From Aurantiacibacter zhengii (GTDB lineage: Bacteria; Pseudomonadota; Alphaproteobacteria; Sphingomonadales; Sphingomonadaceae): a DNA stretch of 64,000 nt. Shown here piece by piece: positions 37,850-57,520 of the stretch. Below the pieces are notes generated by a model. It did not search any database and was not told where the DNA came from. It saw nothing but the letters and a program-made list of their open reading frames with translations. Numbering within the stretch: position 1 is the first letter of the stretch; the number at the start of each line of letters is the position of its first letter. The translations under genes were made by a program, and so were the position numbers. The DNA is taken from assembly GCF_003584125.1 (NCBI RefSeq), contig NZ_QXFL01000010.1, positions 1 to 64,000 on the forward strand, given 5' to 3'.

Positions 37850-37869
37850 AAATGGCTCCCCGAGTTGGA
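37850..37869 (+). repeat. attL core of the tRNA-Asn element
   Basis: AAATGGCTCCCCGAGTTGGA is identical to 57443-57462, where it is the 3' end of tRNA-Asn plus three flanking bases. Here it stands alone as a partial tRNA end, marking the left junction of the element. Confidence 0.92.
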
Positions 37870-37985: not shown

Positions 37986-38005
37986 ATGTGGGAGTAAATG
38001 AGGGA
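37986..38005 (+). repeat. Left copy of a 20-base repeat near the element ends
   Basis: Matches 57369-57388 at 19 of 20 positions in the same orientation (ATGTGGGAGTAAATGAGGGA here). It lies 117 bases inside attL and its GAGGGA is the likely ribosome-binding site of the integrase. It is a candidate arm-type integrase binding site. Confidence 0.65.
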
Positions 38006-38012
38006 TAGACCT

Positions 38013-39227
38013 GTGCCGAAGCTTACTGCTCTGAAAGTCCAGAAGGTAAAGACACCCGGTCGCTACGGTGACGGGGGCGGGCTGTATCTGCTCGTCGCAA
38101 AACCGGGCAAGGGATCGTCGGAACCCATCGGTTCGAAGTCGTGGATGCTGCGAACGGTGGCAAAAGGTTCGGATGGGAAAACCCTTCGTCGCGACATTGG
38201 CCTTGGTCCTGTCGATCTCGTTTCCCTGGAGGAAGCGCGCGACAAGGCGCGAGAATTACGCAAGGTGGCTCGCGCTGGCGGCAATCCGATTGCACACCGC
38301 GATCAGCGGGACGAAACGCCCCCGACATTCCGTGAAGCCGCGAAGGCTTGCCATGATGCCAAGCGGGCAGGCTGGTCCGAGAAAAACGCAACGTCCTTCC
38401 TTTCCAGCTTAGGACAGCACGTGTTCCCTGTAATCGGAGATAGCCCGGTCAACATGGTGAGCGATAAAGACGTGGCCGCTACGCTTGCTCCGCTCTGGAC
38501 CACAAAGGCTGCAATGGCGAAGAAACTGCGCGCCCGGATCGGCCTCGTTCTGAACTACGCGAAGGCAGAAGATTGGCGGGCAACTGGCGCTCCGCGTGAA
38601 GCGCTTTCAACCCTGCTGCCTAAGCAACCCAGCGAAGGCAACTTTGCCTCGATGCCATACGATCAGGTGCCCGCGTTCTTTGCCAAGCAAACCGGCAAGG
38701 GTGACACGCCTTCACGGCTGGCCCTGCTGCTTCAAATACTGACAGGCGCTCGTCATGGTGAAGTGCGGTCGGCCATGTGGTCGCACTTCGATCTTGAGAA
38801 AGCGCTCTGGCACCGGCCAGCCGAATTGATGAAGTCGGGCGAAGCGCACACCGTCACGCTGTCTCCCCAAGCCCTAGCCATATTGGAGCGGGCGCAGGCG
38901 ATCAGGACAGACGCGCGGGATTGCCTCGTATTTCCTAATCGCAACGGTGCTGCGCTGACCGACAACGCGATAAGCAAGCTGGTGCGGCCTACTGGTTTCA
39001 CGGCCCACGGTTTCCGCGCGTCGTTCCGCACTTGGGCGGCTGAACGCATGTCTTCAATACCGGAGGCGGTCGCGGAAGCTGCGCTTGCCCACAAGATACC
39101 GGATCAGGTCGTGCGCTCCTACAATCGCGCGAAGTTCCTCGACCTGCGGCGAACCCTGCTCGATGGCTGGGGCGCGTTTGTCGCGGGCGAGGGCGCGAAG
39201 GTGGTTCAACTCCCGCTTCGAATGTGA
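38013..39227 (+). CDS. int: Tyrosine-type integrase (P4 family)
   Basis: A 404-residue integrase with the N-terminal DUF4102 domain (MPKLTALKVQ ... GRYGDGGGLYLLV), a core-binding domain and a catalytic domain. Catalytic residues are R247 (TGARHGEVRSAMW), H332 and R335 (HGFRASFRTWAAE), H360 and Y370 (VVRSYNRAKF). The GTG at 38013 is preferred: GAGGGA lies 7 bases upstream and homologues start at MPKLT. An ATG at 37998 would add five residues. It sits inside attL but at the end away from the intact tRNA gene. Confidence 0.93.
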   Translation: MPKLTALKVQKVKTPGRYGDGGGLYLLVAKPGKGSSEPIGSKSWMLRTVAKGSDGKTLRRDIGLGPVDLVSLEEARDKARELRKVARAGGNPIAHRDQRDETPPTFREAAKACHDAKRAGWSEKNATSFLSSLGQHVFPVIGDSPVNMVSDKDVAATLAPLWTTKAAMAKKLRARIGLVLNYAKAEDWRATGAPREALSTLLPKQPSEGNFASMPYDQVPAFFAKQTGKGDTPSRLALLLQILTGARHGEVRSAMWSHFDLEKALWHRPAELMKSGEAHTVTLSPQALAILERAQAIRTDARDCLVFPNRNGAALTDNAISKLVRPTGFTAHGFRASFRTWAAERMSSIPEAVAEAALAHKIPDQVVRSYNRAKFLDLRRTLLDGWGAFVAGEGAKVVQLPLRM

Positions 39228-39963: not shown

Positions 39964-40415
39964 TCCCGCCACTCGACCCCTCTCGCGCGGCCACTGACGC
40001 TGCGCGGCCTACCGCAGTTCGGTGTGGACTGACACACGTGTCGGTCGGCCCCCTCGGTGATGATTGGACTGCTGTGTCATGGTCGCCCAAGAGTGGCCCG
40101 AACCCGCTCTGTTTGCCGCGTCCGTATGAACTCGCGGTGGATCATGCGCGGGCTTTCGTCGCCTTGCGCCCCCTCCGCTGTGTTCTCGACCTGCCCAATG
40201 GGCTGGGCGATATGGAGGGGCGCGGCCTTATCCACGTGGAGGCAAGGGGCGCCGCCGTTGAAATCGTCCACGAAAGCGCGAGCGGCAGTAGCTTCGCAAT
40301 TCTGCACCGCTTCATGCTGGGCAATGAAAAGCGCGCTCTCCTTTTCGCCCTCGACAAGCTGACGGAATATCCGAACCGGAAGGGCGCCAGCCGCCTTGGG
40401 CGGGTGTCGGTATGA
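39960..40415 (+). CDS. Hypothetical protein of the replication operon
   Basis: A 151-residue protein of unknown function, coupled by ATGA overlaps to both neighbours. No motif is recognised; the C-terminal half has a compact alpha/beta look (CVLDLPNGLGD, GLIHVEARGAAVEIVHES, FAILHRFMLGNEKRALLFALDKL). Position directly before the primase suggests a replication accessory role, which is inference from context only. Confidence 0.65.
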   Translation: MIPPLDPSRAATDAARPTAVRCGLTHVSVGPLGDDWTAVSWSPKSGPNPLCLPRPYELAVDHARAFVALRPLRCVLDLPNGLGDMEGRGLIHVEARGAAVEIVHESASGSSFAILHRFMLGNEKRALLFALDKLTEYPNRKGASRLGRVSV

Positions 40416-41374
40416 TGGACTTCAATCAGCGAGTCTATCGTGGCGATAGCCAGAGGCCTCAGCCTCTCGACCTGGACGCGATACGCGCCGACCATCCCCT
40501 TCCGGCAGTTGTCGCCAATGCCGGTGTCAAGCTGCAGCGAGCCGGAGCGGAATGGAAGTGTTGCTGCCCGCTTCATAGCGACCGCACTCCCTCGTTCACG
40601 ATCTTCGACAATGGGCGGCGGTGGTGGTGCTTCGGCTGCGGTGTGGGCGGTGATGTGCTGGACTTCATCCAGGCGCTGCACGGTGTCGGGCTGCGAGAAG
40701 CTGCAGCGATGTTGGGTGAGCATGGCACCCCTGCAGTATCGCTGCCTACAAGACCGGCGGAGGAAACCGGCGACCGGACTGGCGAAGCACGGGAAATCTG
40801 GCGCGCCGCCTCTCCCGTGAAAGGCACGCCAGCCGAAAGCTACCTGCGCTCGCGCGGTATCACGGTAGACCTCCCGCCTTCGCTGCGGTTCACCTCGATC
40901 CCCTACGGCAAGCGCGGTGGTGCAATGCCCTGCCTTGTCTGTTGCATACAGTCGCCCGATGGCCCGGTTCAGGGCATCCAGCGCGTCTATCTTGCGCCGG
41001 ATGGCTCTGGAAAGGCCGATGTGCCGAAACCCAAGCTGTCGCTTGGCAAGGTGGCGGGGGGTGCCCTGCGTCTCGCCCCACTTGATGGCAAGGAACTCGT
41101 CGTAACAGAGGGCCCGGAAGATGGCCTGACGCTGTTGCAAGAGCTTCGTCGACCGGTCTGGGTGGGATGTGGAACATCCATGCTCCCTGCGATGCAATTC
41201 CCTTCCACGGTGCGCAGCGTAGCGATTGGTGGGGACAACGATGAGGCCGGGCGGACGGCGGTTGAAAAGGCCGCCCACACCTACGCCAGCCGGGGCCTGA
41301 CGGTGCGGTCATTCTTCCCGCCGGAAGGCAGCAAAGACTTCAACTCGTTTCTGAACAAGGAGGCCGCGCAATGA
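40412..41374 (+). CDS. CHC2 zinc-finger / Toprim primase-like protein
   Basis: A 320-residue DnaG-like primase of a mobile element. The CHC2 zinc finger is C52-x2-H55 ... C73-x2-C76 (CPLH and CFGC). A Toprim domain follows with the Glu of LVVTEGPEDGLTLL (about 235) and the acidic GGDNDEAG (about 275). A central DUF7146-like region links them (LRFTSIPYGKRGGAMPCLV). It would make RNA primers for element replication, probably with the DUF3987 protein encoded next (ATGA overlap). Starts at 40412 and 40415 are both possible. Confidence 0.88.
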   Translation: MMDFNQRVYRGDSQRPQPLDLDAIRADHPLPAVVANAGVKLQRAGAEWKCCCPLHSDRTPSFTIFDNGRRWWCFGCGVGGDVLDFIQALHGVGLREAAAMLGEHGTPAVSLPTRPAEETGDRTGEAREIWRAASPVKGTPAESYLRSRGITVDLPPSLRFTSIPYGKRGGAMPCLVCCIQSPDGPVQGIQRVYLAPDGSGKADVPKPKLSLGKVAGGALRLAPLDGKELVVTEGPEDGLTLLQELRRPVWVGCGTSMLPAMQFPSTVRSVAIGGDNDEAGRTAVEKAAHTYASRGLTVRSFFPPEGSKDFNSFLNKEAAQ

Positions 41375-42897
41375 CGGCTCAATCTATCCAGTCGCGTTTC
41401 GACGAGGGCGAACGTGTAAGCATATGGCCGGTCCCGGATATGTCGGTGCTCAATGCCGGTCGTCGTTCTCCGGTGCCCATGCCCACTGGCCTTTTCGGGG
41501 ATGCCTTCTCCCTGCTGGCCGATATCGCGGAAGGGACCAGCACGCCGCCCGATTATCCCGCGATTGCATTTCTCACTGCCTGCGCCAGCCTGATCGGCGG
41601 CAAGCGGCGAGTTCGTCCGTATTCTACTGCGTCCTGGGCTGAGCCTTGCATAATCTGGGCCGGTGCCGTTGGAGACCCCAGTTCGCGCAAGTCTCCTGCC
41701 CTCGACACGGTGACCGAACCCCTTCGCAATATCGAGCGGGATCATGCCGAGAATCATAAGTCCGCCCTGCGAACGTGGCAAGAGAACATGGAGGCCGCGA
41801 AGGCCACCAAGAAGAACTGGCAGGACAAGCTGTCGAAGGCTGTGAAAGAGAACCTGCCGCCACCATCGATGCCGGACGGTGCTGAAGAGCCGCAGGAGCC
41901 TGTTCGTCGCCGCACGGTAATCATGGATGCGACTCCGGAGGCGGTTGGGGCCATCCTGGGAGGCAATCCGCAAGGCACGCTCCACTTTCGCGACGAGCTC
42001 GCCGGGTGGCTGGGATCATTCGAGCGCTACAGTCCGGGCGGGCGAGAATTCTGGCTAGAAGCCTACGGCGGTCGCGCGTTTACGATCGACCGGAAGGGAT
42101 CTGCCAAGGGGCCGATTATCATTCCGTTCAACGGCGTCTCGGTCTGCGGGGGCATTCAGCCTGCCAAGCTGGCCGATGCGCTGCTCTCGTCGCCTGACGA
42201 TGGTCTGGTTGCCCGCTTCCTCTGGGCATGGCCGGACAAGTTGAGCGTGGTGCAGCGCCCTCGTCAGGCTGCCGATATCGGTGCGCTTGAAGGGGTCTAT
42301 CGCCGCCTTGATGGTCTTTCGTGGGGTCAGGATAGCGAAGGTCGGCAGACCTACATCACCTTACCGCTGTCGGACAACGCGGCGGATATCTTCGAGCGCT
42401 GGCAGCAGGACAACGCGGCCCTCGATGATGACGCCTCGGCGCTGTTCAAGTCCTTCGTCGGCAAGATGGACGGCACCGTTCTGCGCCTCGCGCTGGTTGC
42501 AGAACTGATCGCCTGGGCATGGAACGGCAGCGCGGAGCCGCGCGAAGTCTCGGCCACATCGCTGATCGCAGCGGCAGAATGGGTGGACGACTATGCGAAG
42601 CCGATGGCTGAGCGGGTCTATGGCGATGCCGCCCTCCCCAAGGTGGAGCGCAACGCTTCAGTCTTGGCGCGCTACATCGTCAAGCAGGGCTTCGACCGGA
42701 TCAACCTGCGTGCGCTCAAACGCTCCCCGCACAAAAGCAAGTTGTCGGGGCTGCGTTCCGGCGATGCGATGAACGCTGCGATCGAATGTCTGGTGGACGC
42801 GGGTTGGTTGCTTGCTGACCTGGCACGCGATGGCGAAGCACCCGGACGCCAGCGTTTGGATTATCTCGTCAACCCAGCCGTTCATGGAGGTGCATGA
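41371..42897 (+). CDS. DUF3987 domain protein (replication helicase-like)
   Basis: A 508-residue DUF3987 (YfjI-like) protein common in prophages and islands next to a primase. Typical stretches are GAVGDPSSRKSPALDTVTEPL, VIMDATPEAVGAIL, LHFRDELAGWLGSFERY and FNGVSVCGGIQPAKLADAL. GDPSSRKSPAL stands where a P-loop might be but lacks the classic GK[ST]. The family is thought to act like a helicase in element replication; this is not proven. It overlaps the primase upstream and the next gene downstream, both by ATGA. Confidence 0.85.
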   Translation: MTAQSIQSRFDEGERVSIWPVPDMSVLNAGRRSPVPMPTGLFGDAFSLLADIAEGTSTPPDYPAIAFLTACASLIGGKRRVRPYSTASWAEPCIIWAGAVGDPSSRKSPALDTVTEPLRNIERDHAENHKSALRTWQENMEAAKATKKNWQDKLSKAVKENLPPPSMPDGAEEPQEPVRRRTVIMDATPEAVGAILGGNPQGTLHFRDELAGWLGSFERYSPGGREFWLEAYGGRAFTIDRKGSAKGPIIIPFNGVSVCGGIQPAKLADALLSSPDDGLVARFLWAWPDKLSVVQRPRQAADIGALEGVYRRLDGLSWGQDSEGRQTYITLPLSDNAADIFERWQQDNAALDDDASALFKSFVGKMDGTVLRLALVAELIAWAWNGSAEPREVSATSLIAAAEWVDDYAKPMAERVYGDAALPKVERNASVLARYIVKQGFDRINLRALKRSPHKSKLSGLRSGDAMNAAIECLVDAGWLLADLARDGEAPGRQRLDYLVNPAVHGGA

Positions 42898-43355
42898 TGA
42901 GCTGGAAAGAATATGCCGAAAGCATCCAGAGAGCCGGGGACGTTAGGGACAATAGGGACAGTAGGTGCGAAAGAGCGACTAGCGCCCCTCGCCCTTCCCC
43001 TGTGCCAAGGGTGGTTGCCGATAGCCTTTACCGCGAATGGGTGAAGGCATTGAACGCCATTGATCCCTGCGACCCGAACGACGGCTTCCCCCAAGAGCAC
43101 TGGAGGCGGTTACACACCGCCTCTTTCTGGTGGCTTGAGGGCTACGGTAGGCAGGCAGCGCGTGACGGCTGGGTAACAGGGGACGTGTTCGGTCTCCGGA
43201 AAGGTTGTGAGCGAAGGGGCGGACTGATCGACCAGATGGACGGTTGCCGCGCTTTGGTAATGGAGGGCCGTCGGGCGCGCTGGCGGTCCTATGGCGTGGC
43301 CTTCAGCTATGCGGCTGGGGCATATCCTGATCTGCCTGCTTGGTGGTCGGTTTGA
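42897..43355 (+). CDS. Hypothetical protein at end of the replication operon
   Basis: A 152-residue protein (MSWKEYAESIQRAG...), rich in Trp, Arg and Gly in the C-terminal half. No domain is recognised. TGATGA at its start overlaps the DUF3987 stop, and GGAGG lies just upstream; an ATG three bases earlier (42894) is also usable. It is the last gene of the coupled replication operon; the following genes run on the opposite strand. Confidence 0.65.
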   Translation: MSWKEYAESIQRAGDVRDNRDSRCERATSAPRPSPVPRVVADSLYREWVKALNAIDPCDPNDGFPQEHWRRLHTASFWWLEGYGRQAARDGWVTGDVFGLRKGCERRGGLIDQMDGCRALVMEGRRARWRSYGVAFSYAAGAYPDLPAWWSV

Positions 43356-45439: not shown

Positions 45440-45922
45440 TCACCCTAGAAGGCGTCGGTAGTCCTCCACGGTCTGCGCGACATAGGACCAAGACCAAGAT
45501 TGGGTGCCGCCGTGGCAAGGCTCTAGCACCTTATCCAGCTTCCAGCGCAAAGCCTCTGCGTCGGGCGCTGGCATGTCCAACAAGGCGCTTTGTGCATCGC
45601 AGAACACATCGCAGAGACGTTCCAATTCGTCGTGCGCTGCGTGGTAGTCGTGGGCCTTGGCGACAACCTCGCGCCGCTTCTCGTCGTATTGAGCGGTCCC
45701 TTTCGTCACGCCGTTAGAGCGCAAGCGCGCTTCTAAGGCATCCTCCAAGGGCTGCACCACGTTGCGATAATACGCGTCGCAGGCCGCGTCGGCTTCCTGC
45801 ATCTTGCGCATGGCCGCGTCCCATTCGGTGCGGTCGGCTGGCGCTGCTGCTACGCTGGCGGGAATGGTGGAGGCCGCGACAAGCGCGGCGCTTCCGGTGA
45901 TGAATTGGCGACGGTCGGTCAT
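45440..45922 (-). CDS. Exported helical protein, paralogue of the preceding gene
   Basis: A 160-residue protein with a Tat-like signal (MTDRRQFITGSAALVAASTIPASVAAA; only one of the twin Arg contexts, DRRQFI, fits). The mature part is helical: ADRTEWDAAMRKMQEADAACDAYY and AQSALLDMPAPDAEALRWKLDKVL. The words ADRTEWD and PAPD recur in the protein encoded directly upstream (45919-46434), so the two are distant paralogues, one exported and one apparently cytosolic. Its ATG overlaps that gene's TGA. Confidence 0.62.
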   Translation of the reverse strand: MTDRRQFITGSAALVAASTIPASVAAAPADRTEWDAAMRKMQEADAACDAYYRNVVQPLEDALEARLRSNGVTKGTAQYDEKRREVVAKAHDYHAAHDELERLCDVFCDAQSALLDMPAPDAEALRWKLDKVLEPCHGGTQSWSWSYVAQTVEDYRRLLG

Positions 45923-46434
45923 GCTGCTTCTCCCGCCAGACGGGCCATGTCTTGCGCAACAATCTCGAAAGCATCGCCGCTTAGATCGCGGTCGTTCCAA
46001 ACTTCGTCGCGTTCGATCATTTCGACCTTAAAGAGAGCGGCGGCAAGATCGGGCGCTGGAGTATTGGCCAATGCCACCTGCGCTTTCCAGAGGGGGCGAT
46101 AGAATCGCTCTGTGGTCTGCTCTTCCTCGCGCACAACTCGGTCGATTGCAGTCTCCCATTCGGCCAAGGCTTTGGGGGGGGCGTCCTTACGCCAGTTGCG
46201 GCCAAACTTGAACTCTAGGTCCAATTCAATCCGGTCAGATGCCTCACGCAGTTTCGCGGGTGCGCCATATTCCTCCCATGCGCGGGATAGCGCTTGCAGG
46301 CGAAGGTAGTCCGCAAGGCGCTTGTCCCATTCGGTCCGGTCGGCGGACAGGTTAGTGATTGCGCTTGTCGCGGCCTGCGCAAGCATCGAGGCGTAGCCGT
46401 TCTGGGGGTGCCAGTTGTTGCCAATGTAAGTCAT
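45919..46434 (-). CDS. Helical hypothetical protein of the cargo operon
   Basis: A 171-residue, mostly helical protein without a signal peptide. It shares ADRTEWD and a PAPD(L)AAAL-type stretch with the exported protein encoded next. Proteins of this type are frequent in Sphingomonadales prophages and islands in my experience; no function is known. ATGA overlaps on both sides couple it to its neighbours. The ATG at 46434 is chosen because sequence before it lacks protein character. Confidence 0.62.
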   Translation of the reverse strand: MTYIGNNWHPQNGYASMLAQAATSAITNLSADRTEWDKRLADYLRLQALSRAWEEYGAPAKLREASDRIELDLEFKFGRNWRKDAPPKALAEWETAIDRVVREEEQTTERFYRPLWKAQVALANTPAPDLAAALFKVEMIERDEVWNDRDLSGDAFEIVAQDMARLAGEAA

Positions 46435-47112: not shown

Positions 47113-47523
47113 CTAAGCGCGGTCGTCCCGCTCGTCTGCTACGTCTGCGAACCTGCCAAGCGTGCGCAGATATTGTCGGTCGCCAAGATACCACGGCGCG
47201 ACGGTCGCAAAGACAACTAGGCCCACGACAACCTGCGCAGTCTCTCCGGCTCCAAGAAACTCTAGCGCAGCTTCGGTTAGCGCCGCCAACAGGCCAGCGC
47301 CGACGACGAACAAACCAATGAAGGCGAGAAGCCAGAGGCCGCGCTTCCAGCGCTCCACGGCGCGAAATACTGGCGAGGGGCTGTCGAGGCTCTTGCTACG
47401 GTCCACGGCGTTTCTATGCCACAACTGCGGGCGGCGGTCTATTGGCTGTCCTGCTCCCGTAGTGCCAGGATAATTGCCTTTCGTGCACGGTGTGAATGGG
47501 AAGCGCAGTGGCGGCTTTCCCAC
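47113..47523 (-). CDS. Small two-span membrane protein, unknown
   Basis: Up to 136 residues, with hydrophobic segments LWLLAFIGLFVVGAGLLAAL and TAQVVVGLVVFATVAPWYL in the C-terminal half. The first 40 residues lie partly in a dispersed repeat and look non-coding; a GTG at 47406 (MDRSKSLDSP) is a plausible real start giving 98 residues. Convergent with the XRE gene, 10 bases apart. No function recognised. Confidence 0.5.
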   Translation of the reverse strand: MGKPPLRFPFTPCTKGNYPGTTGAGQPIDRRPQLWHRNAVDRSKSLDSPSPVFRAVERWKRGLWLLAFIGLFVVGAGLLAALTEAALEFLGAGETAQVVVGLVVFATVAPWYLGDRQYLRTLGRFADVADERDDRA

Positions 47524-47595
47524 GGTTCACGCCGAAAGCGGAAATTCAGCTAACGACCCGTTAGCGGACCAAACGAATTTGGGTTAAAGCCCAGT

Positions 47596-48123: not shown

Positions 48124-48365
48124 GGTCCGCTTCCCACCCATCTCGGACATTCCGCCCGAAAATGCTGCATCTCGAAAGCAGACATTCCCATAAAATCACT
48201 TGGAATCATCGACTTATCCGTTTCTGCTAACCGCAAATAGCTGCGTGAACCGGACTATCAACTCTGAATGGCTGCTTTTGAAAAAATCACGCCGAAACCG
48301 GACATTCTGCTAACGACCGAGTGCGGACATTGTTGACGTGCAACTGGCGAGTTATTGTACGGCTA

Positions 48366-48989
48366 ATGACTTTTTCCAAGCACCTCATCTTAGGTCTCGT
48401 CGGAGCACTTTCAGTCACTGCCTGTGATGACGACGATGCGGCGGTATCTCGTAGCTTGGTTGACGCCGGATTTTGGCAGTCGAAAGATGTTTCCGCAGAC
48501 GAGGCGATCGAAGTATTTTGGAACTTGGGCGGAGGCCTCAATGACGAACCTACGCACATCCTCTCATATCAGATCGGGCCAGGAAACACGCTGAAGGTTG
48601 CCCACCTTGAACGATTGGGTGCAACAGACCGGACCATCGCCGAAGAAGTGTTTCAGTTACCGGCAAATGTGGCGGACAATGCCAGAACTCAGTTATGGCG
48701 CCTTCGACCGAGGAAACTTGGGAGCTTCGATGACCCTAGTATGTTCGTTCGACCAATCGGTTGCGAGCCTATTAGCGCACACGATGTTGCAGAACTGAAC
48801 GTCGCTTTCCTGAACGATAATGATACCTCGCAGGTCACTGAGGATGACCTGATGGCACTTTTTGAACTTCCCAGCAGGAGAAGTTGCGACAACGATCATG
48901 CGAGACAAGCTCGACAGCTACTTTCGAGGGTGATCGAAGGACTTCCAAAATCGCGCGTGACAAGAGATTTCCTCGAAGTGGACAAATGA
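48366..48989 (+). CDS. Putative lipoprotein, unknown
   Basis: A 207-residue protein with signal MTFSKHLILGLVGALSVTAC and lipidated Cys at residue 20, followed by an acidic stretch DDDDAA. The rest is soluble and alpha/beta-like, with Cys in IGCEPISAHD and RRSCDNDHARQ. An in-frame start at 48321 lies in the dispersed repeat and is rejected. No function recognised; a third lipoprotein of the same cargo region. Confidence 0.6.
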   Translation: MTFSKHLILGLVGALSVTACDDDDAAVSRSLVDAGFWQSKDVSADEAIEVFWNLGGGLNDEPTHILSYQIGPGNTLKVAHLERLGATDRTIAEEVFQLPANVADNARTQLWRLRPRKLGSFDDPSMFVRPIGCEPISAHDVAELNVAFLNDNDTSQVTEDDLMALFELPSRRSCDNDHARQARQLLSRVIEGLPKSRVTRDFLEVDK

Positions 48990-49134
48990 CTGCTTTCCAC
49001 CCATTAGCAGACCTTCGACAGCGCGGGCGATCCACCCAAGACCGGACTGGCAGCTTTGCCACGGTGGAGCCGAAAGCAGCCTGTCAGCTAACGACCCGAT
49101 TGCAGTCATTCATCGCGCAGGGCAGACTACGCTC

Positions 49135-49320
49135 ATGGGCAAACGATCTGGCGTTCCTCACCGAGCTGAAGAGTTGGCCGCACTCACAAACGAAGAGTTG
49201 CAGTCGGAGTTAGAGCGTTCGCGCGCGCGATTGAACATCGCACCTTCCGCCAAAATGGCGAAGCTGTGGCACAAACGAATCCATTGGCTTGAGAGTGCGA
49301 TTGCTTCTCGGTCTAAATGA
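49135..49320 (+). CDS. Small hypothetical protein, 61 residues
   Basis: MGKRSGVPHRAEELAALTNEEL... is basic and helical, with a likely coiled-coil stretch (EELQSELERSRARL) and C-terminal KLWHKRIHWLESAIASRSK. No domain is recognised. It lies between two copies of the dispersed repeat; the repeat covers the bases just after its stop codon. Confidence 0.45.
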   Translation: MGKRSGVPHRAEELAALTNEELQSELERSRARLNIAPSAKMAKLWHKRIHWLESAIASRSK

Positions 49321-49377
49321 CCGCTTTCCACCCTACATTCGGACATTCAGCTTTCTAATTCGCCACGCCAAAAGCAG

Positions 49378-49670: not shown

Positions 49671-49817
49671 ATGCATCGAACAATCCATTGCACGCCCATC
49701 AAGTTTCATGCGCCCCAGAAGCTAGTGGACGCCATACATGAGGAAGCCGCCCGACAAGGGATGAACCTCTCGGAATTCATGCGTTCTATCGCGCGTGAAA
49801 AGGTGGGGCTCAACTGA
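49671..49817 (+). CDS. Ribbon-helix-helix small DNA-binding-like protein
   Basis: A 48-residue protein: TIHCTPIKFHAPQKLVDAI forms the strand and first helix, and AARQGMNLSEFMRSIAREKV the second helix of an Arc/CopG-type ribbon-helix-helix fold. Such proteins are usually dimeric repressors. AAAGGAAGC precedes the ATG. TGATG overlap couples it to the 307-residue gene, so it may autoregulate the operon, possibly at the 21-base repeat just upstream. Confidence 0.68.
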   Translation: MHRTIHCTPIKFHAPQKLVDAIHEEAARQGMNLSEFMRSIAREKVGLN

Positions 49818-50740
49818 TGCTTATCGACTACGGCCAAGCGCTCCTCGCTGGGAAGACCCTTGTCCCTGGCTATCACGAGATGCAGCAAGAGCGCGAACGC
49901 TCCACGCAGATGGCACTGCTTAACGAGCGTGCCCGACAGGAGATGAAGATCGCACTCGCGAACCAGCAGCGCGAAGAGGACTATCTCGCCGATGCTGCAA
50001 TTACGTTCCAGAACCCTACCGCGGAGAGCGTCGCTAAACTCCATGCTCGCTACCCCCAGCACTCGCGAGCGATTGCAACGGCCTGGGAAGCGCGCGACGA
50101 AGAGACACGACAGAACGAACTGACGCAGTTGTCGACCATCGTTCAACGCATTCGCATGGGCAACATCGAGGGTGCCGCGCAATTTGCTCGCCAGCGATAC
50201 GAGGCCGATGTCGAGGCAGGGACCGCCGATGATGGAGACCTCTTTGTTGTCCGTGCCTTGGAAAGCGGTGATCCCGATGCGGTTGCGCGCGTTGCGAACG
50301 GCCTTCTCATCGAAATGTCGGCGGCGGTAGGTCCGGAGCGCTTCGGTGCAACCTGGGAGAACCTGCGGCAGGAAGAGCGCCAGCAGGATCGTCATGCTGC
50401 GGTGTTGGCCAAGGATGAAGCCGAAGCTGGGGTCGCTGCGGCAGAGGCAGCAGCCGCGCCACAATACTACGGTGCGCGGGCCGAACGTGAGGCGGCGAAC
50501 GCCGATATCGCTGAAAGTGATGCCCGGTTTCGCGATCAGGAAAACCAGTCGGAGATCGCAAACCGGAACGCGCGAACCGTTGCCACCACACGCCGCGATG
50601 CCAGAGCAGCGGCAAGAGCAAGTGCACCGCGCGGAACGTCTCGCCCACGCCGTCCGACCTATTCGCAGTATGCCAGAAATGCTGATGGGGTTCGCATCGG
50701 GTTCAACACTGCAACGGGCGAGTGGGAAAGGGTCAACTGA
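49817..50740 (+). CDS. Hypothetical phage-like protein, 307 residues
   Basis: Highly charged, Gln/Glu/Ala-rich helical protein (MQQERERSTQMALLNERARQEM, AAVLAKDEAEAGVAAAEAAAA, REAANADIAESDARFRDQENQ), likely coiled coil over much of its length, ending in a strand-rich NADGVRIGFNTATGEWERVN. Such composition and its place directly before a very large protein resemble the internal/ejection proteins of short-tailed phages, but there is no motif to prove it. Start overlaps the RHH stop. Confidence 0.6.
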   Translation: MLIDYGQALLAGKTLVPGYHEMQQERERSTQMALLNERARQEMKIALANQQREEDYLADAAITFQNPTAESVAKLHARYPQHSRAIATAWEARDEETRQNELTQLSTIVQRIRMGNIEGAAQFARQRYEADVEAGTADDGDLFVVRALESGDPDAVARVANGLLIEMSAAVGPERFGATWENLRQEERQQDRHAAVLAKDEAEAGVAAAEAAAAPQYYGARAEREAANADIAESDARFRDQENQSEIANRNARTVATTRRDARAAARASAPRGTSRPRRPTYSQYARNADGVRIGFNTATGEWERVN

Positions 50741-50741
50741 T

Positions 50742-50897
50742 ATGGGACTTATCTCGCGCGAACTGTTGGCTATGTGCGGCATGGACCCAGATGACCCGAA
50801 CGCCATCAAGAAGAGGGCGGCTGAACTGGACCGGCTAGACCGCGCTCCGGTGAAGGTTCTCGACCCCTGCGGCGATAGCCCTGCGACGGTGCATTGA
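50742..50897 (+). CDS. Small hypothetical protein, 51 residues
   Basis: MGLISRELLAMCGMDPDDPNAIKKRAAELDRLDRAP... sits between the 307- and 1514-residue genes, with an overlap of one base (TGATG at 50895) to the latter. An operon-coupled position and normal codon composition support it; no domain is recognised. Confidence 0.55.
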   Translation: MGLISRELLAMCGMDPDDPNAIKKRAAELDRLDRAPVKVLDPCGDSPATVH

Positions 50898-53800
50898 TGG
50901 CCAGCGCTGCAACGCCTCCCACCGGTTTCGTGCTTGAGGAAGAACCACGCGCGACCCGACGCTCCGACGCCCCGCCACCTCCGCCGGGGTTTGCTCTGGA
51001 AGTCGATAGGCCTGATACGCCGGAACCGGACGCCCGGCGCACACCTGCCCGCGTCATTACCGGTGAAGTCGTCGACGGTGACACGATCCGAAGCGATGGC
51101 CCGAACGTGCGCCTGTGGGGTGTCGACGCGCCGGAACTGAATCAGCCGGGGTGGAACAGGGAGGGTGAACGGGTGCCTGTCGGGGAAGTGTCTCGCGATG
51201 CGCTGGCCGCATACCTGGCGCAAGGCACTCCCCTCATGGGCGATACTGCAATGGAGTCTTGGGGGCGACCTGTCGCACCAGTGACGGTTGATGGCAGGGA
51301 TGTAGGCCGGGACATGCTGCGCTCTGGCGACGCCTTCGCCGCGCCCGATTACCTGTCTGCCGACCCTGATCGTCGTTTCGATTATGTAGGCGCTGAACGG
51401 CTCGCTCGCCTCAATCGGCTGGGCGTGCATGGTGTCCAGACGCAAGACCCTGCCGACTACCGGGAGAATGGCGAGCTCACGCCGGAACAGCGCAGGCGCG
51501 GGCACTCATGGTTCAACCAGACGCCTTTCGAGGGACTGACGGAGGAAGGCCGGACGCAGTGGCTGGGCGTCCTGCGAACGGGCACGGCAGACGAGATTGC
51601 AGCGAAGGCGCGCGAACTCGGCTTCACGATTGATGAAGATCGAAACCGTGACTGGGTAGCGTGGCGCGACAACGAGCGCTCGGCTGGCCGGGAGCCTGTC
51701 ATTGACCGCGTGCTTTACGAGCGGGAGGTGCCCAAGCCTCTGATCGATGGCGGCGGCGGGCAGCTAGGCGCTGGCGTGCGCGGCTTTGGCGACGAGTTTG
51801 TTCTAGGCGGACTTGGTGAAGTCGGCGCGGTGGTCGATGCGCTGGGTGGCACGGAAGGCCGCGAAAACATCTGGAATAGTGATCGCCGCCTTGCCGACAT
51901 TTGGCACAACAATAATGACCAAAACGCTGCAATACTCGGCTACGATTCCGCGAACTATCCCGTCACCTCCACTACCAGCCGGATCGGCGGCGCGCTCACT
52001 TCGGGCTTTGTCTTGCCGTATGCCCAAGGGATGCGCGCCCGGAACCTCGCGGCTTATGGCGCGGGCTATGGCGCTACTTCCGGGTTCCTCGGCACTGACG
52101 GTTCGCTAGGGGACAGGCTAACGGGTGCAGCTATCGGAACGGCGGTGGGTGCCATTGCTGACCCTGCACTTGCCAAAGGCCTCGATCTGGCTGCGCCCTT
52201 CGTGGCGCGCGGTGCGCGTGCTGTGAGTGATCGCGTCCGTGGTGCTGGCACAAGTCGCCGCGCCGTGGAAACCACAGGCAGCGAAGCGGCGATGAACAAT
52301 GCCCTCGATCTGCCGCAAGGCAAATTGCCGCCCCTTCCTGCTGGCGCTCGCTTGAACACTACCGCAGCGATGGCCGATGATCTGGGCGAAGCAATCTCGG
52401 CCCCTGTGCAACGTCCGCAGCGCCTAGACCAGCCGTTAGAAGATCCAGCACGCCGGGAGATTGCCGACAACATCAACCCGCGTGATGTGCTGCCCATGCC
52501 GTCCAACCGGGTCGATGGGGTGGAGGAAGCGGCAAGCATCGACGCTGGCCGTTACGCGGAAGCGCGGGCACCGAACGAACGGGACGAATTGCAGCGCCGC
52601 ACTGTGCGCAACGTCATGGGGCGCGAAGTGCCCAAGGTCGGCCCGATTGATCTGGTGGGCTGGCTGCGCCTTCGTGGCGGTCTGCGTGAAGAGAACGGCG
52701 AACTTGCCAGCTTGGGCATTACGAACAACGCTGCACGCCGGGGAATGGATTTCGCAGGGCAGGAAATGCGTTTTGGCCCGATGCTGGCCGATGACGGCAT
52801 GACCCTCGATGATGCCGCGTTTGCCGCATGGGAGGAAGGCTACTTCCCGGAACTGTCAGAGCGGCCCGATGTGAACACGTTTCTTGAGGCGCTGGGGGAA
52901 ACCTACAACGGCGGCTCCGGTCGGCGCTTCCATGTTGACGACTTCGCGGAACTCGATGCTTACTATGGCAGGCAGACCGAACGCCTCGACCTGGAGCAAC
53001 AGCGTTATGAAAACGGGGAACCCGTCTATGAGGACCGGGCCGTTGCCGCTGCCGCAGACCAGCCGTTCCCGCCCGTGGAAGCCTATGAAGAATGGCCTAG
53101 CGATGCGATTGGCCGCGTGGGCAACATCGACGTTACGCGCCTCGATACTCCGCAGGACATTCGCCGCGCCCTGAAAACTTCTCACAATGCCTTGGGCGGA
53201 TTTGATGCCGCCACACGCGGGCGCATTACCAACGCAGAAACCGAACGGCTGGCCTCCGAACTGAACATGACGGCGGACCAACTGCTAAAGCGTCGTCGCG
53301 GGCAGGCGTTCAATGCAGAGGAAGCCTTGGCCGCTCGCCGCATACTGGCGAAGTCTGGCAACGAACTGGTGAACACTGCACGGCGCTTGCGTCAGATGGG
53401 CGACAATCCGGGGAGTGAAGCAGAAGCAGAGTTTCGCAAGAAATGGATGCGCCACGTTGCCATTCAGGAACAGGTCGCGGGCATGACGGCGGAAGCTGGC
53501 CGGGTGCTGCAACAATTCCGGCAGGCGGCGAACAGCCGGGAAGTGCGCGGCGATGTGCTGGAAGCCCTTATCCGTGGTGGTGGCGGCTCGAGGCGGATGC
53601 AGGAAGCTGCCGATGCCCTGATTGATATGGCCGAAACGTCACCGGGCAAATTCAACGCCTTTGCTGAAAAGGCAATGAAGCCCAAATGGCGCGACAAGAT
53701 CAGCGAACTTTACATTAATTTCCTGCTCTCCAATCCGCCTACGCATGTCGTGAACATGGTAAGCAACACGCTTACGGCGCTCGCGCAGATTCCCGAATAT

Positions 53801-55441
53801 GCGACCGGGGCGGCTATCGGTGCAGCTCGTCGCGCTGTGATGCGCGATCGGGCGAAGGATGCGATCCGTGCCAGTGAAGTCGGCGCTCGCACCATCGGAC
53901 TGTTGCAGGGGGCCAAGGAAGGCGCTCGCCTGTTCGCCCGCGCGCTTCGCTCTGGCGAGCCTGACGACTTCGTATCCAAGGTCGAGGGCGATCAATACAA
54001 CGCTATCAGCGGACTAAAGGGCGAGGTTATCCGCGTGCCGACGCGCCTGCTCACGGCGGAAGACCAATTCTTCAAAGGCATTGCTCGCCGGATGGAACTC
54101 AACGGGCAGGCTGCGCGCATTGCCAGCCGGGAAGGGCTGCGCGGCGATGCGTGGGACGCCCGCGTTGCGGAACTGGCCGCGAACCCGACCGATGAAATGC
54201 TGCAACGCTCGCTGGACTATGGGAAATATCTCACGTTCCAGACCAAGCTGGGCGAGACCGGGCGGCATGTGTCGGGTTTCGCGCAATCCAACATTCTCGC
54301 AAAGGTGGTGCTGCCCTTCGTTCGCACGCCCATAAACCTGATGAAGTTTGCAACGGAGCGGTCGATTGCAGCGCCGCTCCTGGGCGAATGGCGGGCGGAC
54401 TTCCGGGCAGGTGGTGAGCATAGGGACTTGGCCGTTGCCAAGATGCTGCTCGGCACCGGGTTTGCAACGCTGTTCTATGAAGCTGCGCTTGAGGGCCGGA
54501 TTACCGGAGGCGCTCCCCCTGACCCCGCCAAGGCTCGGTTGATGTATGCGGACGGCTGGCAACCCTACTCGATCCGCGTTGGCGACCGCTGGATTTCCTA
54601 TTCTCGGCTTGACCCGTTCTCCACCACGATTGGCGTTGCTGCCGACATGGCGACGCTGCCCGATGGTTTGAGCGACAGGCAAAAGGACGACAAAGCAATG
54701 CTCCTCGTTGCCTCGATCTTGGGCAACCTTGCTAGCAAGACCTGGCTCTCTGGTGTCTCGGCATTCAGTGAAGCACTGATGGAGCCGGGGCGCTATGCGG
54801 ACAACTGGCTGCAACGCACGGCTGGCGCTTTTGCGGTACCCGCTGGTGTGGCTGGCGTGACGCGCGCTGTTGATCCTGTGATGCGGAATACAGACAGCGT
54901 TGGCGAGGCGATACAAGCCCGCGTGCCGGGTATGTCCAGCGGCCTGATGCCGCGCCGCGATGTGTTCGGGGAGCCTATCGAGTTTGACAGTCTCGGCCCG
55001 GACTTCGTGTCGCCGTTCTGGCAATCGCAGGCGCAAGACGATCCGGTCGTGCGGGAAATGCTGCGCATCGGAAAGAGCGTTAGCGCGCCTGGTCGGCAAT
55101 ACACCGAAGATGGCGAACGGGTGGATTACACGCCGGAAGAATATGACCGCTATTCCGAGATTGCGGGTCGCCTGACCTACAACGCGCTGCTCGGTGAGAT
55201 TGCTTCGCCGCGATGGCAGAACGTAAGCGACAAACATCGACATAAGCTGGCCACCGACGCGATCCGAGAGGCCCGTGCAACCGCTCGTAGCGTGATTGAC
55301 GATATGTCCTACGAGCTACCGGAACGCGGTGCGGTGCCTGAATTGATGCCAGCCGATACGCGGGCGGAGCCTGCCCCTCTCCCGACGGGGTTCTCCGCCG
55401 ACGGTGTTCCTGCACCTCCTCCCGGCTTCACGGTGGAATGA
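50897..55441 (+). CDS. 1514-residue phage-like protein with N-terminal SNase domain
   Basis: Three parts. Residues 1-50 hold two P[TP]GF motifs (PPTGFVLEE, PPPPGFALEVD). Residues about 52-170 are a staphylococcal-nuclease-like domain with EVVDGDTIR, R72, D77 and E80 (VRLWGVDAPE). The rest contains Gly/Ala-rich, possibly membrane-active stretches (GAGYGATSGFLGTDGSLGDR) and a long helical region (LSNPPTHVVNMVSNTLTAL ... LPFVRTPINLMKFATERS) like phage virion ejection or polyvalent proteins. The C terminus repeats the P[TP]GF motif twice. A DNA-ejection role is inference. ATG at 50897 overlaps the previous stop. Confidence 0.7.
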   Translation: MASAATPPTGFVLEEEPRATRRSDAPPPPPGFALEVDRPDTPEPDARRTPARVITGEVVDGDTIRSDGPNVRLWGVDAPELNQPGWNREGERVPVGEVSRDALAAYLAQGTPLMGDTAMESWGRPVAPVTVDGRDVGRDMLRSGDAFAAPDYLSADPDRRFDYVGAERLARLNRLGVHGVQTQDPADYRENGELTPEQRRRGHSWFNQTPFEGLTEEGRTQWLGVLRTGTADEIAAKARELGFTIDEDRNRDWVAWRDNERSAGREPVIDRVLYEREVPKPLIDGGGGQLGAGVRGFGDEFVLGGLGEVGAVVDALGGTEGRENIWNSDRRLADIWHNNNDQNAAILGYDSANYPVTSTTSRIGGALTSGFVLPYAQGMRARNLAAYGAGYGATSGFLGTDGSLGDRLTGAAIGTAVGAIADPALAKGLDLAAPFVARGARAVSDRVRGAGTSRRAVETTGSEAAMNNALDLPQGKLPPLPAGARLNTTAAMADDLGEAISAPVQRPQRLDQPLEDPARREIADNINPRDVLPMPSNRVDGVEEAASIDAGRYAEARAPNERDELQRRTVRNVMGREVPKVGPIDLVGWLRLRGGLREENGELASLGITNNAARRGMDFAGQEMRFGPMLADDGMTLDDAAFAAWEEGYFPELSERPDVNTFLEALGETYNGGSGRRFHVDDFAELDAYYGRQTERLDLEQQRYENGEPVYEDRAVAAAADQPFPPVEAYEEWPSDAIGRVGNIDVTRLDTPQDIRRALKTSHNALGGFDAATRGRITNAETERLASELNMTADQLLKRRRGQAFNAEEALAARRILAKSGNELVNTARRLRQMGDNPGSEAEAEFRKKWMRHVAIQEQVAGMTAEAGRVLQQFRQAANSREVRGDVLEALIRGGGGSRRMQEAADALIDMAETSPGKFNAFAEKAMKPKWRDKISELYINFLLSNPPTHVVNMVSNTLTALAQIPEYATGAAIGAARRAVMRDRAKDAIRASEVGARTIGLLQGAKEGARLFARALRSGEPDDFVSKVEGDQYNAISGLKGEVIRVPTRLLTAEDQFFKGIARRMELNGQAARIASREGLRGDAWDARVAELAANPTDEMLQRSLDYGKYLTFQTKLGETGRHVSGFAQSNILAKVVLPFVRTPINLMKFATERSIAAPLLGEWRADFRAGGEHRDLAVAKMLLGTGFATLFYEAALEGRITGGAPPDPAKARLMYADGWQPYSIRVGDRWISYSRLDPFSTTIGVAADMATLPDGLSDRQKDDKAMLLVASILGNLASKTWLSGVSAFSEALMEPGRYADNWLQRTAGAFAVPAGVAGVTRAVDPVMRNTDSVGEAIQARVPGMSSGLMPRRDVFGEPIEFDSLGPDFVSPFWQSQAQDDPVVREMLRIGKSVSAPGRQYTEDGERVDYTPEEYDRYSEIAGRLTYNALLGEIASPRWQNVSDKHRHKLATDAIREARATARSVIDDMSYELPERGAVPELMPADTRAEPAPLPTGFSADGVPAPPPGFTVE

Positions 55442-55875
55442 TGGAGGAGGAACCGAAAAAAACCGGGCGGAAACCGGATGGCACGTTCGCGCCAGGTAAC
55501 AAGATGGGCGGTCGCCCACCGGGTTCGCTGAACAAGACGACACTGGCCGTTCGGGAACTGCTGGATGGTGAAGCGGAAGCCCTGACGCGCAAGGCTATTG
55601 ATCTTGCGCTTGCGGGTGATGGACGTGCACTGCGCCTTTGTCTGGACCGCATAGCGCCGCCACGGAGGGACGGACCAATTGAGTTCGAACTTCCCCCAAT
55701 AAAGACGATGGAAGACGCAGCGAAAGCATCTGCGGCGCTGTTGGATGCGGTGGCGGCTGGTGAAGTCACGCCCGATGAAGCGGGACGCGTGATGGCGTTA
55801 CTCACCGCTCATAAGCAGCTTGTCGAAAGCGGTGACTTGGAAGCCCGGATTGTGGCCTTGGAGAATAGACAATGA
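55438..55875 (+). CDS. DUF5681-like phage protein
   Basis: A 145-residue protein. The N-terminal GRKPDGTFAPGNKMGGRPPGS is the hallmark of DUF5681, a family often encoded near terminase genes in phages. The middle (LDRIAPPRRDGPIEFELPPI) and C-terminal helices (AAKASAALLDAVAAGEVTPDEA, LLTAHKQLVESGDLEARIVALE) complete the family pattern. Role unknown. No large terminase is nearby. ATGA overlaps on both sides. Confidence 0.75.
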   Translation: MMEEEPKKTGRKPDGTFAPGNKMGGRPPGSLNKTTLAVRELLDGEAEALTRKAIDLALAGDGRALRLCLDRIAPPRRDGPIEFELPPIKTMEDAAKASAALLDAVAAGEVTPDEAGRVMALLTAHKQLVESGDLEARIVALENRQ

Positions 55876-56429: not shown

Positions 56430-57269
56430 TTGAGCGTTCCTATTGACCATCACTACCTGCCTCAATTTTACTTGAGGCGTTGGACCCGAGGAGAGAAGCT
56501 TTATCGGTATGTGCGCCCACGGAAGGGTTCCGCCATACACCAAAAGAAGGTGACACCCGCAGCGGTCGGCTATCAACCACATCTATATGCTTATTCGGAC
56601 GGAACCGACGAAGCGGATCGGCAGAGGCTCGAAACACGTTTTTTCCAACTTATAGACGACCGTGCCGCCGCTGCTCTGGCAAAAGTCGAAGAGGGGCAAA
56701 GAGGCACTGCAATTGACCGAGTTGGGCTGGTGCAATTTCTTCTCTCACTGCTCCATCGTAGCCCAACGCGCATTGAGCACCTGCGCGACGAACTGGCTGA
56801 GCGTATGAAATCCGTTCCGGGCTTCGATGCAAGCGACCCTGCCCAAATAATGAGGATTGCAGACAGTATAAACGATCTCTTGAGCGATCTAATTTCATCA
56901 AGAGATATGGTGCCCTTCGTGGCGGAGATGAGAGTCTTTCGTGTGGACGTAGAGGCCAAAGTGAAACTTCTGACGTGCGACATACCCCTAATGCAGTCAC
57001 ACGGGATCAAGAGGCCTGACGCATTTCTCATGCTGCCGTATGCGCCTAATCGACTTTTAATATTGGCGCATGATGAGCGCGTGGCGCTCTCTTTCTCCTC
57101 CCAGGAAAAGGAAGCACTCGCAAACGCAGTGAACGACGCGGTAGTGAAGCAAGCAAGACAGGTGGTGATCGCCTCCAACGATGAAGCACGAGCGTTCATA
57201 GAAGCGAGGTTTGATCCATTTTCACCGCCGCCGCCAGAAAACGGGCTTCTTACTTGGGCGGCGCCATAA
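56430..57269 (+). CDS. DUF4238 protein (cargo)
   Basis: A 279-residue DUF4238 protein. The N-terminal IDHHYLPQFYLRRW is the family hallmark (HHYxPQFxLRxW), followed by helical regions and the middle LTCDIPLM and LPYAPNRLLILAHDE strands. The family is common in genomic islands and its function is unknown. Start is TTG at 56430, placed directly before the hallmark. By eye it is the most AT-rich gene in the element, and it stands apart from the coupled operon by about 157 bases, so it looks like separately acquired cargo at the right end. Confidence 0.78.
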   Translation: MSVPIDHHYLPQFYLRRWTRGEKLYRYVRPRKGSAIHQKKVTPAAVGYQPHLYAYSDGTDEADRQRLETRFFQLIDDRAAAALAKVEEGQRGTAIDRVGLVQFLLSLLHRSPTRIEHLRDELAERMKSVPGFDASDPAQIMRIADSINDLLSDLISSRDMVPFVAEMRVFRVDVEAKVKLLTCDIPLMQSHGIKRPDAFLMLPYAPNRLLILAHDERVALSFSSQEKEALANAVNDAVVKQARQVVIASNDEARAFIEARFDPFSPPPPENGLLTWAAP

Positions 57270-57442: not shown

Positions 57443-57462
57443 AAATGGCTCCCCGAGTTGGA
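57443..57462 (+). repeat. attR core, 3' end of tRNA-Asn
   Basis: Identical to attL at 37850-37869. Bases 57446-57462 are the last 17 bases of tRNA-Asn including CCA, so integration left the tRNA gene intact on this side. Confidence 0.92.
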
Positions 57463-57520
57463 TTCGAACCAACGACCAAGTGATTAACAGTCACCTACTC
57501 TACCGCTGAGCTATCGGGGA
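57446..57520 (-). tRNA. tRNA-Asn (anticodon GTT)
   Basis: A 75-base cloverleaf on the minus strand: acceptor TCCCCGA/TCGGGGA, D arm GCTCAGCGGTAGAGT, anticodon stem GGTGA/TCACT with loop CTGTTAA (anticodon GTT), T arm TTGGTTCGAATCCAA, discriminator G and encoded CCA. Its 3' end is the integration site of the element on its left. Confidence 0.97.

Follow-up and report, generated by a model that had tools for sequence, protein, structure and literature searches.

The 64,000-nucleotide stretch of the Aurantiacibacter zhengii genome analysed here (contig NZ_QXFL01000010.1, positions 1 to 64,000; called the window below) contains a 19.6-kb integrated element bracketed by a 20-bp repeat of the 3′ end of a tRNA-Asn gene. 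This element is most likely a phage satellite which puts its own nuclease-carrying ejection protein into the particles of a helper podovirus. Such borrowing and arming of another virus's particles is suggested by two features in combination: no capsid genes were found in the scans, and the element encodes a giant protein with both a nuclease domain and matching short tags at its two ends. Judged by sequence, the giant (50897..55441, forward strand; 1514 aa, reading frame open throughout) is a podovirus-type ejection (pilot) protein with an intact staphylococcal nuclease (SNase) front and a long internal-virion-protein body, tagged at either end. It is one of 19 SNase-bearing giants compared below, where labels beginning with G, C and L are our own handles for genomes, contigs and loci.

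The nuclease-headed ejection protein

A first-pass annotation of the window, made without database searches, had placed an SNase-like domain at the head of the 1514-residue protein, and this is borne out by the family searches. SNase (PF00565) is the sole Pfam family above its cut-off on the giant, scoring 24.7 bits against a cut-off of 21 (29.5 bits in the genome search) over residues 70-176 (51104..51424, forward strand), with the active-site motif starting at D60. The window copy has DGDT, R72-D77-E80 and WGR124 complete, and D60, G61, D62, T63, R72, D77, E80, G123 and R124 do not vary among the 14 sequences of an alignment that includes it. R72, D77 and E80 together with R124 are presumably the catalytic Arg-Asp-Glu set and the second Arg of SNase. 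The annotation had let its case depend on the survival of R72, D77 and E80 in homologues; all three are kept in 14 of 14 aligned sequences and in two viral-contig homologues. The active-site pattern is likewise kept in 19/19 SNase-bearing giants, which adds little because these were chosen by a similar pattern; the 14-sequence alignment is the better test of conservation.

Structural comparison points the same way. In the PDB, a four-sequence profile picks up thermonuclease chains (best E 0.0011), and an AlphaFold2 model of the N-terminal part, a low-confidence one with a mean predicted local distance difference test (pLDDT) of 42.5, returned 50 PDB matches with Foldseek, 49 of them titled staphylococcal nuclease (all save 1kdb), with a best E of 5.5e-4 and two matches at E <= 0.001; this was the outcome of a check that the annotation itself had proposed. 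Among the PHROG families, residues 55-152 match one of unknown function (E 7.9e-10) and residues 57-144 an endonuclease family (E 0.0035). In four pairs the SNase part has ratios of nonsynonymous to synonymous substitution rates (dN/dS) of 0.10, 0.30, 0.17 and 0.05. An SNase fold with its active site is supported by these results, and nuclease activity is predicted. Some elements have a second small SNase-like gene in their cargo: G248 (L051:13261-13611), G282 (joined 8157-8510) and G160 (joined 13400-13786).

The view of the protein as an ejection-like phage protein has also stood. Residues 1046-1436 (54032..55204, forward strand) match PHROG 6651 'internal virion protein' at E 2e-32, and a tblastn search of the whole giant against 50,697 phage records matched 49 of them; together these establish its relation to known internal virion proteins. 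Among the 30 listed of these 49 records the matches are confined to residues 748 onward, none covers the SNase part, and several records, from Pelagibacter, Roseobacter and other phages, are annotated 'internal virion protein D'. Residues 45-421, searched against the same records, gave only two unannotated fecal-sample contigs at E <= 1e-3, in one of which the match sits amid bacterial-type genes. A PDB profile search with the body gave no match, and its AlphaFold2 model has a mean pLDDT of 36. The body evolves under purifying selection, with a dN/dS of 0.05-0.16 in four pairs.

Matching tags at both ends

The giant carries P[TP]GF at residues 8, 29, 1496 and 1508, four copies where 20,000 residue shuffles gave a mean of 0.033 and a maximum of 2. 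All lie on the forward strand: PTGFVLE (50918..50938, residues 8-14) and PPGFALE (50981..51001, residues 29-35) at the N-terminus, PTGFSAD (55382..55402, residues 1496-1502) and PPGFTVE (55418..55438, residues 1508-1514) at the C-terminus. The annotation had described P[TP]GF-x-[LV]E as occurring twice at each end; the core motif does so, and the full form is found in 3 of the 4 copies, the third, PTGFSAD, departing from it.

Across the 19 giants the tags fall into three types (PPGF-like 10, xWxxF 5, WPG 4) when sorted by patterns that admit variants such as PPGW, and the N-terminal type equals the C-terminal type in 19/19 proteins. By our own count the chance of this under random pairing is about 1 in ten million for rows that are in fact related, so that a tree carries more weight than this figure. 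On the core tree, which leaves 5/16 inner branches open and has two long rows, the tag type changes about 7 times (6 times on the first 14 rows), against a mean of 8.0 for shuffled types and with 52/200 shuffles as low. The closest swapped pair is formed by two Croceicoccus copies whose cores are 84% identical and which differ in type at both ends. Since the two ends agree in type despite these roughly 7 changes, they probably dock on a single partner and are exchanged jointly, as the annotation had supposed of the docking. How such cassettes move can be seen from G282 and G160, in which the first 400 residues are 94-96% identical over bodies that are 56-67% identical. A strict twin-repeat test (p<=0.02) is passed by 12/19 SNase giants and by 7/64 viral-contig giants, and is not reached by L006, G224, G482, G392, G058, G248 and G160.

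Searched as DNA patterns in viral contigs (IMG/VR), the PPGF and DPWAxF tags gave 26 and 13 stretches, several of them near-identical. Counted from where the stop-to-stop frame begins, the twins lie within about the first 110 residues, save in L110, which has no in-frame twin, and in L078, L079 and L097, where the twin is far inside a long frame. From 31 distinct tagged proteins 27 were scanned (that is, without L078, L079, L097 and L113), and the matches comprise four DNA-ejection proteins, one internal virion protein with an endolysin domain, two major head proteins, one DarB-like antirestriction protein, one ddrB-ParB and one LPD1 domain, and one weak match to each of two tape-measure families. 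Their neighbours (69 scanned of 111 open reading frames, ORFs) include five matches to the head-closure protein Hc3, five to DNA-ejection proteins and two to major head proteins. This is the outcome of the motif search in phage proteins that the annotation had proposed. Two things were unforeseen in it: that the motif is only one of several interchangeable tag types, and that similar twins stand at the front of other phage proteins, some of which belong to ejection and polyvalent families. A C-terminal tag was seen in 0 of the 24 tagged IMG/VR proteins examined further, some of which end at contig ends. With N-terminal tags in many phage proteins and C-terminal ones in none of these, matching end tags distinguish the giant's own family. 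A scan of the viral contigs for NPYLALG gave 0 stretches and missed its own source contig as well, which makes it uninformative. Two ejection-type giants of viral contigs (L223, L253) carry other twin or triple N-terminal repeats, NLIDDAV and GPDPFA, which suggests further tag types.

A family of elements lacking terminase and portal matches

In a search of 298 family genomes drawn from a larger group, 15 matched at E <= 1e-130, 12 of them with SNase; the remaining 125 of 140 matching genomes gave weaker matches, many of which cover nothing but the SNase part. Among 396 genomes of the order, a profile search found 16 at E <= 1e-20 and five further SNase-bearing loci, all of the same family, while a search of 385 genomes of the class gave 4 matches, the window's included, and no further SNase locus. 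With L006 and L007 added, the number of SNase-bearing loci comes to 19, the window's among them, spread over at least 12 genus groups. A broken copy (G258), a shortened one (G088b) and two partial matches (G011, G157) are left out of this number, G057, G274, G534 and G498b have no SNase by pattern, and L005 and L008 are the same loci as G221 and G258, each counted once. In G088b (L072/L071) an apparent internal deletion has shortened the giant to 402 aa, with tags kept at both ends.

Twelve of the 19 loci have a 14-63 bp repeat at a tRNA gene (Asn, Lys, Gln, Tyr, Thr, Glu, Arg or Ser), of which the attachment (att)-like repeats of 14-15 bp are weak cases. These att-bounded elements measure 17.4-24.0 kb in 11 cases and 30.0 kb in one, and their shared parts are 70-74% identical in nucleotide sequence in 18 of the 20 most similar listed pairs, three SNase-less elements included. 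An integrase was found with one profile in 11 of the 12 att-bounded elements, in G221 weakly (E 1e-4), and no match was obtained with this profile in G498. An integrase together with att repeats at a tRNA gene is what is expected of a satellite.

The second expectation is that head and terminase genes are lacking, and as far as the searches reach this is the case. Profiles for terminase (PHROG 2, PHROG 38), portal (PF12236, PHROG 156) and head closure (PHROG 578) matched in 0/19 loci, L006 and L007 lying outside one of the terminase and portal searches; the matches of these genomes are elsewhere or nowhere, and capsid profiles were not searched genome-wide. The positive controls were found, G534 by PHROG 38, 156 and 578 and G026 by PF12236 and weakly by PHROG 2. 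PHROG 38 served as the terminase test because PHROG 2 missed the terminase of G534. Hc3 matched in only one genome of the 19 loci, G482, on a different contig. When 133 of 150 listed proteins from 11 elements were scanned against PHROG as cluster representatives, the best 25 of 56 and of 68 families included replication, integration, transposase and unknown families as well as one DNA ejection protein, one virion structural protein and one head maturation protease. Twenty proteins scanned singly matched primases or helicases, a 'DNA ejection' protein, protease families and, in the case of three tail-like proteins, virion structural families, and none matched a terminase or portal.

Tail-spike- or fibre-like genes lie beside the ejection genes at L042:6050-8737, L062:1686-3959, L045:14342-17238 and L049:14252-16105. 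Among five such proteins three match a PHROG 'virion structural protein' (one of G249, weakly, and two of G058), one of G160 matches an unknown family and that of L007 has no PHROG match.

The link to virions

Two relatives of the giant are encoded in a structural module. In the prophage of G534 a homologue of the giant comes after genes for terminase, portal, major head protein, Hc3 head closure and DNA ejection and a c2-type gene; this homologue has twin N-terminal tags (DDFEIV), no SNase and no C-terminal tags. A three-gene ejection cassette is common to this prophage and the elements; its PHROG 598 'DNA ejection' gene occurs in G534 and in the element of G006, with a homologue in G945. The latter, a viral contig (L182, 30.9-kb record), carries terminase, portal, capsid, Hc3-like, DNA-ejection and c2 genes followed by an SNase-headed giant that is cut at its C end and has twin tags of a fourth type. 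Its capsid protein is 32% identical to that of G534, its Hc3-like gene 26% identical to Hc3 of G534 (E 5e-33), its DNA-ejection gene 51% identical to that of the G006 element and its c2 gene 39% identical to that of G057. Because here an SNase-headed giant follows structural genes, this contig is the strongest evidence that the SNase-headed ejection protein is a real virion protein. The proposal that a nuclease is carried inside a virion is thus well founded for the protein type, given a homologue in the structural module of an apparent podovirus; the window copy itself is found not in a phage but on an integrated element without head-gene matches.

A profile scan of viral contigs gave 83 relatives of the body, of which 80 were kept; an earlier scan with a single protein gave none, and an SNase-side scan gave none that was confirmed. 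L180, a 51-kb viral record, has an SNase-headed giant with DPWAxF tags at both ends and element-like neighbours, and no match to the PHROG 38 terminase or the PHROG 156 portal. Two other accounts fall away: an ordinary phage gene is ruled out by the att repeats which close a 19.6-kb element without a terminase or portal match, and a restriction of SNase giants to satellites by the G945 contig with its whole phage module.

A. zhengii itself has a podovirus-type prophage with a T7-type portal (C12:~11000-53000, L163-L165), whose untagged giant of 1061 aa is weakly related to that of the window (E 1e-6); a free SNase gene lies at 52372-52758. A co-resident podovirus prophage as helper, recognised by a shared tag, was considered and rejected, as 0 of the 3 prophages examined, which are a part of the terminase-bearing loci of these genomes, share the tag. 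In G282 the element spike and the prophage spike are 55.8% identical. Their N-termini differ and the C-terminal part is read as shared, which hints at a shared receptor and not at a shared particle.

Proposed cycle and competing explanations

The satellite cycle would begin with excision and replication of the element by its own integrase, primase and helicase, whose genes are present together with the att repeats. A podovirus would supply the particle. The terminal tags, which match and change together, may bind one helper protein, perhaps the portal, the internal core or the scaffold, and in this way carry the ejection protein of the element into the head of the helper. When the particle next infects, the body would help to form a DNA channel across the envelope, and the nuclease would be delivered with or ahead of the DNA, by analogy with ejection proteins of the T7 and P22 type. 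There it could cut nucleic acid of the recipient or of a competitor. Staphylococcal nuclease requires calcium, and for this reason we conjecture that the enzyme could remain inactive in the cytoplasm of the producing cell and work in the envelope.

A bolder generalisation, which we put forward tentatively, is that these elements carry only those virus parts which touch the next cell, namely a nuclease-armed ejection protein, its partner genes and sometimes a tail spike, that exchangeable tags key the ejection protein to the podovirus available, and that the borrowed particle then fires the satellite's injection machine and nuclease. If true, satellites could replace the injection machinery of a virus and not only alter packaging or capsid size, and the particles that they borrow could be loaded with an enzyme. 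From the tags, as from a code, one could read which proteins enter the head of a podovirus, recruitment of ejection proteins into heads would become directly testable, and chosen proteins might be loaded into environmental phage particles.

Several observations weigh against the satellite interpretation. SNase was found in only 2/80 viral-contig relatives, L180 and L182 (16/80 being cut at the N end), the prophages on C12 of the host's own genome and on C81 of G282 carry untagged ejection-type proteins, and that on C1 of G482 has the tag GPWDDY where the element is of the PPGF type. One strict pattern for the WPG twin tag gave 0 stretches in the viral contigs, and PPGF-type rows are somewhat clustered on the tree (28/500 shuffles as low), which implies fewer independent tag swaps. 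In seven of the 19 loci a contig end interrupts the element or no att repeat was found. One element protein matches PHROG 94 'head maturation protease' at 1e-14 and a protein of G088 weakly matches families of this type, so some head-type genes may be present. An M15 (DD-peptidase-like) domain is absent from the window copy and present by pattern in 12/19, and the predicted structures of both the N-terminal part and the body are poor.

The same anatomy would be expected of a defence system in which the tagged nuclease protein replaces the podovirus's own ejection protein and poisons the particles, transfer of the element being secondary. Entry of the tagged protein into particles would not depend on packaging of the element, and variable cargo genes do lie beside the giant. 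An ejection partner, replication genes and in some elements tail-spike-like genes nevertheless point to particles being used and not only ruined, and the purifying selection seen in the body fits a functional ejection protein; defence as the main role is unlikely. It is quite improbable that the element is an ordinary podovirus prophage which lost its head genes and kept the ejection gene by chance. A phage contig with an SNase-headed protein and a prophage with the same cassette do exist, as do a shortened (G088b, 402 aa) and a broken (G258) copy. Yet the giant's frame is open in 19 loci of at least 12 genus groups without a terminase or portal match, 12/19 loci are repeat-bounded at several tRNA genes, most shared parts have 70-74% identity and purifying selection acts on the gene. 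Identical loss time after time is unlikely, and the elements keep tags at both ends, which the C-terminus of G534 lacks.

Two further alternatives concern the parts of the giant. A nuclease touching packaged DNA would be hazardous to the virus and the SNase domain is divergent (24.7 bits), so that the fold might hold or guide DNA in the particle without cutting it; against this, no catalytic position varies among the 14 aligned sequences and both viral-contig homologues retain them, and loss of cutting seems a poor bet. The tags, for their part, might be cleavage sites or domain spacers of a polyprotein and not docking motifs, given that several relatives also have them between domains (near residue 450 and beside the M15 domain); the internal tag of G088, PPPGFVL, is of a type unlike its end tags. 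Cleavage would release little, however, as the N-terminal tags lie within about the first 50 residues and are often twins, the type changes jointly at both ends and the IMG/VR phage twins are mostly near the N-terminus, all of which leaves this explanation with a small share of the probability. The satellite interpretation thus remains the one we prefer.

Other genes of the element

The 20-bp exact direct repeats lie at 37850..37869 (attL-like copy of the tRNA-Asn 3′ end) and 57443..57462 (attR-like copy inside that 3′ end), the tRNA-Asn(gtt) gene at the integration site being at 57446..57520 on the reverse strand; tRNA-Asn is also the site in L007 and G006. On the forward strand follow a tyrosine integrase (37998..39227; PHROG 1, E 1.9e-44, and Pfam integrase domains), a primase with a CHC2 zinc ribbon and Toprim (40412..41374; PHROG and Pfam matches), a DUF3987 helicase-like protein (41371..42897; PF13148, E 2.9e-62, and PHROG 2373 DNA helicase) and a small protein of cluster c12 (42894..43355), common to G062, G248 and G249. 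A small protein of cluster c7 on the reverse strand (45440..45925), common to G057, G058, G062 and L006, resembles one with a twin-arginine translocation (TAT) signal, with a TAT match below the cut-off and a weak match to PHROG 6121 'virion structural' (E 0.064). This is the best virion match besides the giant: no clear one was found in PHROG or Pfam for the other element genes scanned.

Upstream of the giant, a 307-aa gene (49817..50740, forward strand) without a family match at a meaningful E-value in Pfam or PHROG stands where other elements have their ejection partner genes (c2/c3); the G392 protein in the same place is 26% identical. It is followed by a 51-aa ORF (50742..50897, forward strand), whose stop overlaps the start of the giant (TGATG). 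Between small genes of the element there are direct repeats of 35-50 nt (47509-47565, 48269-48325 and 49069-49103, with a spacing of 760 and 778 nt) and a 19-nt direct repeat (48984-49002 and 49315-49333).

Downstream of the giant, on the same strand, lies a DUF5681 protein (55438..55875; PF18932, 27.2 bits against a cut-off of 27.5). The gene is next after the giant or one gene further also in G062, G006, L007, G160 and G553, and the structural proteome table of a Salmonella phage lists a DUF5681 protein with 2 peptides (PMC8954984); gene order and this table row make it a candidate small-terminase-like protein. ORFs that look DUF5681-like by eye stand directly upstream of large-terminase genes at G224:C6:63123-64950 and G062:C1:1649982-1651864, in genomes without portal matches, and could possibly represent a terminase-bearing mobile cassette. 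A DUF4238 cargo gene (56430..57269, forward strand; PF14022, E 1.9e-27) completes the element.

Comparison with known systems

In its C-terminal body the giant resembles the internal virion or ejection proteins of podoviruses, such as the T7 gp16-type 'internal virion protein D' and the P22-type modules, and the likeness extends to the three-gene cassette with its PHROG 598 gene. T7 gp16 carries a lytic transglycosylase (a title on this is cited in PMC8954989), whereas the front domain of the giant is an SNase and matching tags stand at both of its ends. The fold and active site of this front are those of staphylococcal nuclease homologues (PF00565), which include free phage SNases; the host's own prophage has such a free SNase (C12:52372-52758), in contrast to the window's, which is fused to an ejection protein. 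The nearest publication found concerns GBSV1-NSN, a phage non-specific nuclease (PMC2390534).

Polyvalent phage proteins are effectors of several domains that are believed to enter together with the DNA (Iyer et al. 2017, PMC5512222). The likeness to them consists of the LPD1, ddrB-ParB and DarB-like matches, one each, among the 27 tagged IMG/VR proteins. The giant itself shows no LPD or other listed polyvalent domain above cut-off in the Pfam scan, and the main text of PMC5512222 has no occurrence of 'SNase', 'staphylococcal nuclease' or 'packaging signal'. A literature search on satellites with ejection or pilot proteins, on SNase together with internal virion or ejection proteins and on satellites in this bacterial group, which left subscription papers mostly outside so that absence from print is not proven, found no description of such a system.

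Satellites are described as 7-20 kb in size, with att repeats, an integrase and replication genes and without structural genes (PMC13376191). The elements described here, at 17-30 kb, are like the phage satellites of the PICI, PICMI and P4-like kinds in having an integrase, att repeats and their own replication genes, with no terminase or portal match. Unlike known phage satellites, they carry ejection-module genes and, in some members, tail-spike-like genes.

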